A stretch of DNA of 64,000 nucleotides from assembly GCF_019357495.1 (NCBI RefSeq), contig NZ_CP079110.1:496001-560000 (forward strand), written 5' to 3'. This DNA is from Nosocomiicoccus ampullae (GTDB lineage Bacteria; Bacillota; Bacilli; Staphylococcales; Salinicoccaceae). The notes below the pieces were generated by a model. The model saw nothing but the letters and a program-made list of their open reading frames with translations. It was not told where the DNA came from and did not search any database. Every line of letters begins with the position of its first letter. The stretch's first letter is position 1. A program made the translations under genes and the position numbers. Shown here one piece after another: positions 5,385 through 9,683 of the stretch.

Positions 5385-7367
5385 ATGGAAGGACATATTA
5401 TTTCAGAACGCTACCGCCTTAAAAAATATCTCGGTGGCGGGATGAGTTCTGTCTATTTAGCCGATGATATTATTTTAGACCGAGAAGTCGTTGTAAAGCT
5501 TATTAAATCTGATCCATACAATAAAGAAAAAATGATGGAACGATTTCAACGAGAAGTTCAAAATACGACACGTTTGAATCATCCAAATATTGTGACAGTG
5601 TTAGACGTAGACGACACAAGTGAATATCATGTTCTCGTCACTGAATATATTAACGGACCAAATTTAAAAGTTTATATCGATCAAAACAAACCATTACCAT
5701 TCGATAAAATTGTTGAGTTATCTTTAATGACGCTACGCGGAATTGAACACGCACATAATCGAGGAATTATTCATAGAGATATTAAACCTCAAAACATTTT
5801 AATCGATGAAAATGGCCAGCTAGAGATTACAGACTTCGGAATTGCGAAAGCTTTATCTGAAACGAGACTCACTGAAACAAACCAAGTCATGGGGTCTGTT
5901 CAATATATTTCACCCGAACAAGCAAAAGGTAAAATCGCTGACGAACGTGCGGATATTTACAGTTTTGGGATTATGCTTTATGAAATGATAACTGGAGAAC
6001 TACCATTTCAAGCAGAAACTCAAGTATCAGTTGCATTACAGCATATTCAGTCACCAATGCCTAATATCGATGACGTTCGTGAAGATGTACCGGTTGGATT
6101 AAAAAACATCGTTTATAAATGTACAGAAAAAGATCCTAACGATCGATATAGTGATGCTGGAGAAGTAATAAGTGACTTACTTAATTACCGAAATATGACA
6201 ACCGCTTATGAAACGAATGAGAAAAAAGAAAAAGCGGCTGAACAAACGGTGCCAATCGTACCACCACCAGTGAAAAAAGATCCTATGAAAAAAGAACCAC
6301 AACCCACACCACCTGTTGAAGAAAAGGAAGAGAAAAAGAAAAGACGAAAATGGCCTTGGCTAGTTTTATTACTACTTCTTTTAATTGGTGGTACTGCAGC
6401 AGCAGCTTTATTTATAAAATCTACACCTAAAGAAGTTGAAGTGATTGACGTCAAAGGTATGAGTTTAAATGAAGCAAAAGAAACGTTAGAAGAATCTGGA
6501 TTGAACATTGGAGAAGTGTCGAGAGAATATAATGATTCGATTGAAACAAACCACGTCATTAATACAAATCCAAAATCTGGTAAAATTTTACAAGAAGGCG
6601 ACACGATTGATTTAAATGTTTCTGACGGAGAAGAGCCGTACGAAATGGAAGACTTTACAAATAAATCTGTCGACTCTGTAAAAGAAAAGCTAGACAGTTT
6701 AGAATTTAAATCTGTCAATATTGAAGAAGAGTATTCTGACGATGTCGACAAGGGTGATGTCATCGAACAATCAATTAAACCAGGTACTAAAATCATTCCA
6801 AAAGAAGAGAGTATTACGTTAACAGTATCACTCGGACAAGAGCCAATTGAAATTGAGAATTTTATCGGTAACAGTTTTGAAAACGCAAAAGCAACACTTG
6901 AAAGTCAAGGATTCGTCATTAATATCGTTAACGAAATATATAGTGATGATTACGATAAAGGTATCGTCGTTGGACAAGATCCAAGTTACGGTGCATTTTT
7001 ACCAGGCTCACCAATTAATTTAACAGTATCTAAAGGTAAAGCCCCTAAAGAAGCAAAAGAGTTTCAGCATAATGTCACAATTCCATATGGTGATGATGAT
7101 TCCAAGGATAGCGATTCTAAAGATTCTGATTCTAATGATTCCGTTTCAAAAGATAAAAAAGATAAGAAGAAAAAATCTAAACCGAAAAAAGTCACAGTGT
7201 ATATTGATGACAAGACACGTAGTATAGATGATGTTGAAGATTCATTTGAGATTAATGAAGATACACCGTATACAATTAACCTTGTACTTGATGAAGGTAA
7301 AACTGGACGTTATAAAATCGAAGTAGATGGGAATAAGGTATTCGAAGAGTCAATAAAAAATGAATAA
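5385..7367 (+). CDS. stk: PASTA-domain eukaryotic-like Ser/Thr kinase Stk1 (PknB/PrkC)
   Basis: This 660-residue membrane kinase has a cytoplasmic Hanks-type kinase domain (1-265) with Gly-rich GGGMSS at 17-22, catalytic Lys38, HRDIKPQN with Asp132, DFG at 150-152 and the activation segment GSVQYISPEQAKG. A basic juxtamembrane stretch leads to one membrane helix (about 322-345). Three extracellular PASTA repeats follow (about 350-418, 420-489 and 490-557); such repeats bind muropeptides and lipid II in relatives. Then comes a Ser/Asp-rich linker (DSKDSDSKDSDSNDS), a lysine block, and a small C-terminal beta domain. It is likely to control cell-wall and division physiology with Stp. The Ser-Asp linker is an unusual detail. 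Confidence 0.96.
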   Translation: MEGHIISERYRLKKYLGGGMSSVYLADDIILDREVVVKLIKSDPYNKEKMMERFQREVQNTTRLNHPNIVTVLDVDDTSEYHVLVTEYINGPNLKVYIDQNKPLPFDKIVELSLMTLRGIEHAHNRGIIHRDIKPQNILIDENGQLEITDFGIAKALSETRLTETNQVMGSVQYISPEQAKGKIADERADIYSFGIMLYEMITGELPFQAETQVSVALQHIQSPMPNIDDVREDVPVGLKNIVYKCTEKDPNDRYSDAGEVISDLLNYRNMTTAYETNEKKEKAAEQTVPIVPPPVKKDPMKKEPQPTPPVEEKEEKKKRRKWPWLVLLLLLLIGGTAAAALFIKSTPKEVEVIDVKGMSLNEAKETLEESGLNIGEVSREYNDSIETNHVINTNPKSGKILQEGDTIDLNVSDGEEPYEMEDFTNKSVDSVKEKLDSLEFKSVNIEEEYSDDVDKGDVIEQSIKPGTKIIPKEESITLTVSLGQEPIEIENFIGNSFENAKATLESQGFVINIVNEIYSDDYDKGIVVGQDPSYGAFLPGSPINLTVSKGKAPKEAKEFQHNVTIPYGDDDSKDSDSKDSDSNDSVSKDKKDKKKKSKPKKVTVYIDDKTRSIDDVEDSFEINEDTPYTINLVLDEGKTGRYKIEVDGNKVFEESIKNE

Positions 7368-7384
7368 ATTATTTTCGTGAAATA

Positions 7385-7414
7385 TTGGCGTTTACAAAAA
7401 ATCTTATTTATAAT
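7385..7414 (+). promoter_or_regulatory. Predicted sigma-A promoter of the P450 gene
   Basis: A perfect -10 TATAAT (7409-7414) has TTGGCG 18 bases upstream (7385-7390), which matches the -35 consensus in four of six positions. It lies after the stk stop and before the P450 Shine-Dalgarno at 7434. No terminator separates stk from this point, so the P450 could be transcribed both from here and by read-through. Confidence 0.55.
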
Positions 7415-7448
7415 GAAACTAAGACTTCAATTTGGAGGATGGAAATTT

Positions 7449-8717
7449 ATGGCAAAAATTAAAAGACATAAAGGTCTAGACAATACTTTAAAAGTATTTG
7501 GTCAAGGATACCTTTATACGACAAATCAAAGAGAACGTTTAAATGCGGAAGTGTTTGAAACACGCGCACTTGGTGGTAAAAGTTACGTTGTTTTAAATGG
7601 TAAAGAAGGTGCTGAACTTTTCTACGATAACGATAAAATCGAACGTGAAGGTGGATTACCTAGACGTGTTGTAAACACTTTATTTGGTAAAGGTGCAATC
7701 CATACAACAACTGGTAAACAGCACATCGACAGAAAAGCATTATTCATGTCATTAATGACTGAAGGTAACTTACAATATGTACGTGAATTAACACGTAACT
7801 ACTGGAAAGCGAATACTGCACGTATGGAACAAATGGGAGACGTAAACGTCTACCACGAATCAGTTGTTCTATTAACACGTATTGGTATGCGCTGGGCAGG
7901 AGTAACTGCACCAGAAGAAGAAATTGAAAGAATCGCAGAAGACATGGATATCATGATCGACTCATTCAAAGGTCTTGGTAACGCGTTTAAAGGTTACAAA
8001 GCATCAAAAGATGCACGTAAACGTGTCGAAGACTGGCTAGAAGAGCAAATTATTCAAACACGTAAAGGTGAAATTAATCCTCCGAAAGGAACACCACTTT
8101 ACGAATTTGCACACTGGAGAGATTATGAAGGTAACCACATGGACTCTAGACTTGCGGGAATTGACTTAATGAACACATTCCGTCCATTAATCGCAATTAA
8201 CCGCTTCGTATCATATGGAGTACTTGCGTTACACGAGCATCCAGAAGCATTCCGTAAAATGAGTACAGTTGAAGATTATCCTTATATGTTCGCTCAAGAA
8301 GTAAGAAGATATTACCCATTCGTACCATTCTTACCTGGTAAAACGAAAGTAGAAGTTGAACATAAAGGTGTAACTATCCCTAAAGACCAACGTCTCGTAA
8401 TTGACGTATACGGTACACTTCACAGTGAAGATTTATGGGATAAGCCAAACGAATTCATTCCTGAACGTTTTATCGACTGGGATGGTTCACCGTTTGACAT
8501 GATCCCTCAAGGTGGCGGAGACTACTGGACAAACCACCGCTGTGCAGGTGAATGGATTACAGTAATCATCATGGAAGAAACGATGAAATACTTCGCAAAT
8601 GAAATCACTTGGGACGTACCAGAACAAGATTTAACAATTAATCTAAACAGTATCCCTGGTTACATCAACAGTGGTATGGTTATTAATAACGTAAGAGAAA
8701 AAGTAGACCGTTCTTAA
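7449..8717 (+). CDS. oleT: OleT-type cytochrome P450 fatty acid decarboxylase/peroxygenase (CYP152)
   Basis: This 422-residue soluble P450 of the CYP152 peroxygenase family uses hydrogen peroxide and needs no redox partner. The haem ligand lies in GGGDYWTNHRCAGEW at Cys365. The substrate-carboxylate Arg245 is in NTFRPLIAI. His85 (FGKGAIH) and Phe79 are the residues that distinguish the alkene-forming OleT of Jeotgalicoccus from hydroxylating relatives, which have Gln at position 85. All four fall at the same residue numbers as in that enzyme and the total length is identical. The chosen ATG has GGAGG ten bases upstream; an upstream in-frame start adds 24 unrelated residues. Its predicted product is terminal alkenes from free fatty acids, plus hydroxy acids. 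It has its own promoter and terminator inside the stk-rsgA interval. Confidence 0.93.
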   Translation: MAKIKRHKGLDNTLKVFGQGYLYTTNQRERLNAEVFETRALGGKSYVVLNGKEGAELFYDNDKIEREGGLPRRVVNTLFGKGAIHTTTGKQHIDRKALFMSLMTEGNLQYVRELTRNYWKANTARMEQMGDVNVYHESVVLLTRIGMRWAGVTAPEEEIERIAEDMDIMIDSFKGLGNAFKGYKASKDARKRVEDWLEEQIIQTRKGEINPPKGTPLYEFAHWRDYEGNHMDSRLAGIDLMNTFRPLIAINRFVSYGVLALHEHPEAFRKMSTVEDYPYMFAQEVRRYYPFVPFLPGKTKVEVEHKGVTIPKDQRLVIDVYGTLHSEDLWDKPNEFIPERFIDWDGSPFDMIPQGGGDYWTNHRCAGEWITVIIMEETMKYFANEITWDVPEQDLTINLNSIPGYINSGMVINNVREKVDRS

Positions 8718-8727
8718 TATAAGTTTT

Positions 8728-8760
8728 CCCTCTAGACGAAAGTTTAGAGGGATTTTTTTA
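8728..8760 (+). terminator. Rho-independent terminator after the P450 gene
   Basis: Stem CCCTCTA (8728-8734) pairs with TAGAGGG (8745-8751), followed by ATTTTTTTA. It ends the P450 transcript and isolates it from rsgA. Confidence 0.9.
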
Positions 8761-8819
8761 TCTTTCTTATAGAAATACGTTTGATATAATTTAATTAGAA
8801 AGAATTTCTAGGAGGAATT

Positions 8820-9683
8820 ATGCAGACAGGTAAAATTGTAAAAGCACTTGCCGGATTTTATTATGTAAAAAATGGAGATGACGTGTACCAAACACGTGCG
8901 AGAGGAATTTTTCGTAAACGTAAACTCAGTCCTTTAGTCGGTGATATCGTGGATTTTGAATCAGATAATTTAAAAGAAGGTACAATTACTCATATCCATG
9001 ATAGAAAAAACAGCTTAGTCCGACCACAAGTCGCAAATGTCGATCAGTTACTTATAACAATGAGCATTAAAAATCCAAATTTTAGTTTTTATTTAATGGA
9101 CCGCTTCATTGCCTATAGTGAATCTCACGGTATAGATCCCGTATTAATTATTACTAAAATCGACTTAAATAGCGACGAAGCACTCCAAGATAAAATAAAA
9201 GAAACTTATAATATGTACGATATCTTTTTTACTGAAAAAGACACAGTCAATGAATCGTTAAAAGATATTTTTCCAAATAAGTTATTAGTACTTGCTGGTC
9301 AAACAGGTGTCGGTAAAAGTACGCTATTAAATACACTTCTTCCAGAGTTAAACTTAGAGACAAATGAAATTAGTGATAAGTTAAACCGCGGTAAACATAC
9401 GACGCGTCACGTTGAACTTATCGATAAAAATGGCGGTGAAATCGCAGATACACCGGGATTTTCAACAATTGATTTTACACATATTGAAAAAGAAGACTTA
9501 AGATTTTATTTTAAGGAGTTTAATGACTATATTGACAACTGTAAATTTAGAGGATGCGTACATATTAACGAGCCGAAATGTGCAGTAAAAGAAGCAGTCA
9601 ATAACGGTGACATTAAAGAGAGTCGCTATAACAGCTATGTAGAAATTTATGAAGAGATTAGTAATTATAAGGAGAGATATTAA
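8820..9683 (+). CDS. rsgA: Ribosome small-subunit-dependent GTPase RsgA (YloQ)
   Basis: RsgA is a circularly permuted GTPase that checks late 30S subunit maturation. The 287-residue protein has an N-terminal OB fold (about 1-70). The permuted G motifs come in the order TKID (G4, near residue 116), GQTGVGKST (G1, near 160) and DTPG (G3, near 209). A C-terminal zinc-binding region contains CKFRGCVHINEPKC. The start is supported by GGAGGAAT directly upstream. A TATAAT at 8785-8790 probably serves as -10, with a weak -35. The stop overlaps rpe (TAATG). Confidence 0.96.
   Translation: MQTGKIVKALAGFYYVKNGDDVYQTRARGIFRKRKLSPLVGDIVDFESDNLKEGTITHIHDRKNSLVRPQVANVDQLLITMSIKNPNFSFYLMDRFIAYSESHGIDPVLIITKIDLNSDEALQDKIKETYNMYDIFFTEKDTVNESLKDIFPNKLLVLAGQTGVGKSTLLNTLLPELNLETNEISDKLNRGKHTTRHVELIDKNGGEIADTPGFSTIDFTHIEKEDLRFYFKEFNDYIDNCKFRGCVHINEPKCAVKEAVNNGDIKESRYNSYVEIYEEISNYKERY

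Follow-up and report, generated by a model that had tools for sequence, protein, structure and literature searches.

OleT enzymes have been studied for biofuel chemistry; our interest here is the biology of their hosts. Three of them are the closest described systems for the protein considered below. First, OleT_JE (CYP152L1) comes from Jeotgalicoccus sp. ATCC 8456 and is represented by the structures PDB 4L40 and 4L54. Second, OleT_LA of Lacicoccus alkaliphilus (PDB 9JQM) is a decarboxylase with the same conserved residues as our protein (PMC12284513). Third, the CYP152 of Nosocomiicoccus massiliensis was characterised in 2026 as OleT_NS, an H2O2-driven alkene former that passes through Compounds I and II and yields 1-alkenes together with hydroxy acids (PMC13049924). 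The same source places its activity peak at 20 °C, where alpha-hydroxy products are undetectable and the decarboxylation/hydroxylation ratios are 4.8, 4.4 and 5.2 for C10, C12 and C14, respectively, and reports that temperature shifts the alkene : hydroxy-acid ratio. The hydroxylase comparator is P450-BSbeta/CypC (CYP152A1; PDB 1IZO). For the active site, we took the roles of Arg245-Pro246, His85 and Phe79 from PMC5818669, PMC5377825, PMC6452516 and PMC12284513, with the meaning of the Arg-Pro pair in CYP152s following PMC5818669 and the listing of His85, Phe79 and Ile170 as conserved for decarboxylation following PMC6452516.

The oleT locus of Nosocomiicoccus ampullae

We analysed a stretch of 64,000 nucleotides (the window) from the genome of Nosocomiicoccus ampullae, a small, salt-tolerant bacterium related to the staphylococci. 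In it, an oleT gene lies between stk and rsgA with the following features:

5385..7367, + strand: stk (pknB), PASTA Ser/Thr kinase, upstream flank (NF033483, 575 bits, cut-off 450)
7385..7414, + strand: sigma-A-type promoter-like site, TTGGCG-18-TATAAT (10/12 consensus matches)
7434..7438, + strand: ribosome-binding site GGAGG (direct sequence reading; GGAGG also in the upstream regions of relatives examined)
7449..8717, + strand: oleT, CYP152L-type fatty-acid peroxygenase/decarboxylase, 422 aa (intact ORF, 74% identity to OleT_JE, key residues, placement in the OleT group)
8727..8762, + strand: intrinsic-terminator-like hairpin and T-run (11 pairs, 5 of them G-C, then TTTTTTTATC)
8820..9683, + strand: rsgA, ribosome small-subunit GTPase, downstream flank (TIGR00157, 247.6 bits, cut-off 100)

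The oleT reading frame runs from the ATG at 7449 to the TAA at 8715-8717 and has no internal stop. An alternative GTG at 7377 in the same frame would give a protein of 446 aa; we favour 7449 because this ATG and its ribosome-binding site are conserved among relatives. The product (Pfam PF00067, 57.1 bits against a cut-off of 22.8) is the sole P450 found in the genome, which comprises 1.55 Mb in two contigs. The closest genome contigs are those of Candidatus Nosocomiicoccus stercorigallinarum (99%), followed by N. massiliensis NP2 (94%), and the proteins encoded beside oleT differ by 2-6% from those of the nearest relative.

The best PDB matches of the window protein are 9JQM (741 bits) and 4L40 (740 bits), with E-values of ~1e-222. 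OleT_JE, likewise of 422 aa, aligns without gaps over residues 1-421 with 74.3% identity (421 aligned residues) and identical key residues; the alignment with 4L40 confirms the correspondence of Phe79, His85, Arg245, Cys365 and overall length that had been noted in a preliminary description of this DNA. By P450 naming convention, more than 55% identity to CYP152L1 defines CYP152L, and the window protein lies above that threshold. OleT_LA is 73.2% identical and has two extra residues near position 33.

Judged by sequence, OleT_NS of N. massiliensis, rather than the Jeotgalicoccus enzyme (74%), is the characterised enzyme closest to the window protein: identity to the strain NP2 protein, the sequence of which may differ from the assayed one, is 94% (25 substitutions). 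The catalytic residues are the same in both. The temperature-switch residues of OleT_NS found in the window protein are Tyr59, Thr77, Lys96, Ser101, Ser172, Ser186, Glu219, His363 and Ser401. Asp398 of OleT_NS, the site of a contact favoured at 30 °C, is replaced by Asn, and the position given as Asp242 is Asn242 in the window protein, the NP2 protein and OleT_JE alike (PMC13049924). The window enzyme is a further OleT of an already known type, with its chemistry known from a 94% identical ortholog. By homology, it should both decarboxylate and hydroxylate C10-C20 acids; exclusive alkene production would be unexpected because OleT_NS makes hydroxy acids too, and the alkene : hydroxy-acid ratio of the window enzyme is unreadable from its sequence.

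Transcription signals and codon adaptation

The preliminary description had credited oleT with its own promoter and terminator, and comparison of sequences across the family favours this. First, a TTGGYR-type hexamer and, 17-19 nt further on, either TATAAT or TATACT were found in 25/26 family stk-oleT spacers, a count that overstates independence, as the pattern was set after inspecting the sequences and the loci are related by descent. The expectation from dinucleotide shuffles was 0.03. In these 25 loci the motif ends 30-34 nt before the ATG, and outside it the spacer varies among family loci. Second, the hairpin and T-run, scored in the window, have counterparts in most of 16 downstream regions read by eye. 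The conserved promoter-like motif of the family oleT loci may be a new feature. Its position between the genes disfavours an stk-oleT operon; some read-through from stk into oleT is possible given the gap of 68-104 bp (32 family genomes measured).

We then considered codon usage. We derived codon weights from 27 ORFs for ribosomal proteins and elongation factors (4557 codons), whose own median CAI is 0.715; on this scale oleT reaches 0.724. Among 216 sampled ORFs no shorter than 150 aa, taken from the window and 11 stretches, the median CAI is 0.524 and only two values lie above that of oleT; the flanking stk and rsgA score 0.530 and 0.515, respectively. Further, in the comparisons with three relatives, no other measured gene has a dS as low as that of oleT: 0.14 versus 0.27-0.39 for its neighbours against L002, 0.69 versus 0.91-3.42 against L003 (strain NP2), and 1.06 versus 1.33 or more, with three genes saturated, against L004 (Phocicoccus). 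The codon comparison covered 34 loci and the motif comparison 26. Within the former, oleT has the top fraction of C-ending codons among its neighbours in 22/24 family loci and in 5/10 loci of Staphylococcaceae (Macrococcus, Macrococcoides, Mammaliicoccus). The strong codon bias of oleT is not general beyond the family. Codon adaptation, an indirect indicator of expression, points to high expression of oleT in the family and does so less strongly in some Macrococcus and Macrococcoides. The adaptation of oleT to the level of ribosomal-protein genes may be another new feature.

The low dS and the codon bias might instead reflect recent interspecies transfer or gene conversion, and the position of oleT below every measured neighbour in all three comparisons is what this would predict. 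We consider it unlikely: the codons resemble those of the ribosomal reference set, the leading C-ending fraction recurs in nearly all family loci, and the OleT gene tree follows that of RsgA (see below).

Active-site residues and family placement

In OleT_JE numbering, Phe79, His85, Ile170, Arg245, Pro246 and Cys365 are all present in the aligned window protein, with the heme thiolate Cys365 located within the P450 signature region and Arg245-Pro246 replacing the acid-alcohol pair. All but Ile170 (40/43) are kept in 43/43 OleT-type rows. P450-BSbeta, at 39.9% identity, has Phe79, the Arg-Pro pair and the heme Cys in common with the window protein, whereas it differs by Gln85 and a shorter F-G region; the OleT-type F-G loop of the window protein is 4 residues longer. 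Thus, among the residues that the preliminary description had offered as marks of an OleT, His85 does separate OleT from BSbeta, and Phe79, Arg245 and Cys365 are common to both; the features that set the window protein apart from BSbeta are His85 and the longer F-G loop.

In a tree of 51 rows, the window protein is placed among the OleTs and apart from the CypC/BSbeta group, and a family-level split is apparent. The branch that parts the OleT rows from the 8 rows of CypC/BSbeta type, on which the root was imposed, has 100% SH-aLRT support. This CYP152 phylogeny, which the preliminary description had proposed as a check, gave no placement in the P450-BSbeta clade. The residue table and the tree leave aside L001 (the window's own genome), L041-L043 (distant P450s), L039 (interrupted by a run of N) and rows unmatched over 300 residues, including L049 and L054; the tree additionally leaves aside L035, which is cut by a contig end. 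Taken with the identity values, the residues and the tree support the description of the protein as an OleT-type peroxygenase and probable former of terminal alkenes.

The best NCBIfam match is CypC (NF053744), at 480.7 bits and below the equivalog cut-off of 600, and position 85 is His where CypC/CYP152A has Gln85. We reject a BSbeta-type identity on the strength of residues, tree and family cut-off. A related reading, in which the enzyme functions as an alpha/beta-hydroxylase of the CypC/P450-BSbeta type and alkene is a minor product, could draw on that best match, on the Arg-Pro pair and heme Cys common to CYP152s, and on the hydroxy acids that OleT_NS also yields. It appears quite improbable to us in view of the sub-threshold CypC score, His85, the longer F-G region, the placement in the tree and the preference of OleT_NS for decarboxylation, by factors of 4.4-5.2 for C10-C14 at 20 °C (PMC13049924).

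Second CYP152 genes in the family

A CypC-like CYP152 (31-39% identity) occurs at a separate place in several family genomes and shows decay in some family members, with some copies carrying a stop and others reduced to fragments. The N. massiliensis version (L047, G017 C1:6000-7990) has one in-frame TGA and Ser at position 79; fragments are found in G009 (C1:950994-954616), and G022 and G002 each have a single stop. The window genome yielded no such gene. Among the oleT copies of the 33 family genomes we saw no internal stop, two copies being shortened by contig ends. A further paralog, L044 (G012 C1:94400-96000; 39% identity), combines His85 and Leu79 with an extended F-G region on a long branch and may represent a separate CYP152 subgroup.

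Conservation and history of the locus

An OleT match was found in 33/33 genomes searched of the window's family. Across the order, 74 of 157 genomes gave a match, of which 71 are OleT-type (identity of 54% or more) and 3 are weaker CYP152s or other P450s. These 71 comprise all 33 of the window's family, the single genome of a second family (1/1), 24/24 from four genera of a third family and 13/84 from the largest genus of that third family, which we infer to be Staphylococcus; in a fourth family the count was 0/15. In this Staphylococcus-like genus oleT is dispensable, because 71/84 genomes are without an OleT-type gene.

The preliminary description had interpreted oleT as a lineage-specific insertion and had suggested gene order in relatives as a check. 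The outcome speaks against an insertion: stk precedes oleT on the same strand in 69/71 OleT-type genomes, the remaining two having it on another contig, and rsgA follows oleT in the same orientation in 67/71 among the matches listed. The rsgA exceptions are two genomes with the gene on other contigs, one without it among the matches listed, and G067, where a rearrangement has left rsgA (C1:1160970-1161839) ~759 kb from stk-oleT on the opposite strand, with the order otherwise constant. The stk-oleT-rsgA order spans three families and was seen on named contigs of Jeotgalicoccus, Salinicoccus, Lacicoccus, Phocicoccus, Aliicoccus, Macrococcus, Mammaliicoccus lentus and Staphylococcus massiliensis. 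The statement that oleT interrupts a conserved order is right in so far as other lineages are without the gene; within its own family, oleT is itself part of that order.

We also compared the OleT and RsgA trees over 35 loci, with L051 left out because of the opposite orientation of its gene. The two trees have 20/32 splits in common, against a mean of 0.155 and a maximum of 3 with random labels; at support of at least 90, there are 13 common splits and one conflicting pair. In the OleT-less Staphylococcus-like genomes, no more than 700 bp separate stk from rsgA in 36 of the 44 measured (46/71 had near-full-length stk rows), which makes an oleT-free interval a frequent state in that genus. The family-wide presence and the fixed stk and rsgA flanks across the order are explained most simply by one ancestral gene, inherited vertically and later lost in some lineages, and the most likely direction of change at the stk-rsgA interval is loss rather than insertion.

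A history in which several families each gained oleT independently at a single hotspot would account for the patchy presence in the Staphylococcus-like genus and for the variable spacing of the interval; we regard it as very improbable given the agreement of the OleT and RsgA trees and an orientation to stk that is constant wherever measured (69/71). A lineage-specific insertion by horizontal transfer is to our minds extremely improbable: the short stk-rsgA distances in OleT-less genomes and the entry of other genes into this interval could be cited for it, and against it stand the presence in every family genome searched, the occurrence at this locus in two other families as well, and the near absence of conflict between the trees.

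Several individual loci differ in their spacing. In Salinicoccus halodurans, oleT and rsgA are separated by a rhodanese-domain gene read from the opposite strand (L008:8371-8676, -); the oleT-rsgA gap in the window, at only 105 bp, is too small for such a gene. The corresponding Phocicoccus interval (L004:8295-11869) holds a TRAP-type transporter set of an NMT1-like binding protein, DUF1850 and DctM, and in Macrococcoides bohemicum a 288-aa ORF with no Pfam match lies between stk and oleT (L026:6083-6949). The apparent interruption of oleT in Staphylococcus massiliensis (L039) is a run of N, and no insertion can be claimed there.

Proposed function and significance

Overall, we hold it very probable that the window gene is, at once, an OleT (CYP152L) of Nosocomiicoccus by identity, an OleT by reaction type and a vertically inherited gene. 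In the mechanism that we envisage, a free fatty acid would enter past the F-G loop and Arg245 would hold its carboxylate next to the heme. The heme, with its Cys365 thiolate, would convert H2O2 to Compound I by the peroxide shunt, and hydrogen abstraction mainly at C-beta would then give a Cn-1 terminal alkene and CO2, with beta-hydroxy acids and some alpha-hydroxy acids as side products. The gene would be transcribed from its own promoter to its own terminator and probably expressed strongly, with a housekeeping role for the enzyme. Our analysis itself establishes sequence, residues, clade, codon bias and the conservation of locus and promoter motif, and for the window enzyme we infer reaction, expression level and role from comparison; the reaction has been demonstrated in other work with the N. 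massiliensis protein (PMC13049924).

OleT might remove peroxide along with free fatty acids, and a detoxification role of this kind is a tentative suggestion that we would not yet bet on. With similar reserve, we put forward as possible, if somewhat short of probable, that in the family of Nosocomiicoccus, Salinicoccus and Jeotgalicoccus OleT is a core enzyme and not a curiosity of secondary metabolism. Its fixed locus would then supply amounts like those of ribosomal proteins, and even genomes of 1.5 Mb would have retained the gene, probably for the disposal of free fatty acid and H2O2 in one reaction. Judged from search listings, we found in the open-access PMC literature no paper on OleT codon bias or on the stk-oleT-rsgA arrangement, and no account of the role of OleT for its host bacteria.

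The locus adds little to knowledge of catalysis, since a 94% identical enzyme has already been assayed. Rather, the family-wide presence, the fixed locus, the promoter-like motif and the ribosomal-level codon bias make the role of OleT in its hosts a testable question. If the reading as a core enzyme is true, hydrocarbons would be released in bulk as the by-product of a function in stress or membrane maintenance. The question worth keeping is why these bacteria retain, and apparently strongly express, an alkene-forming P450.
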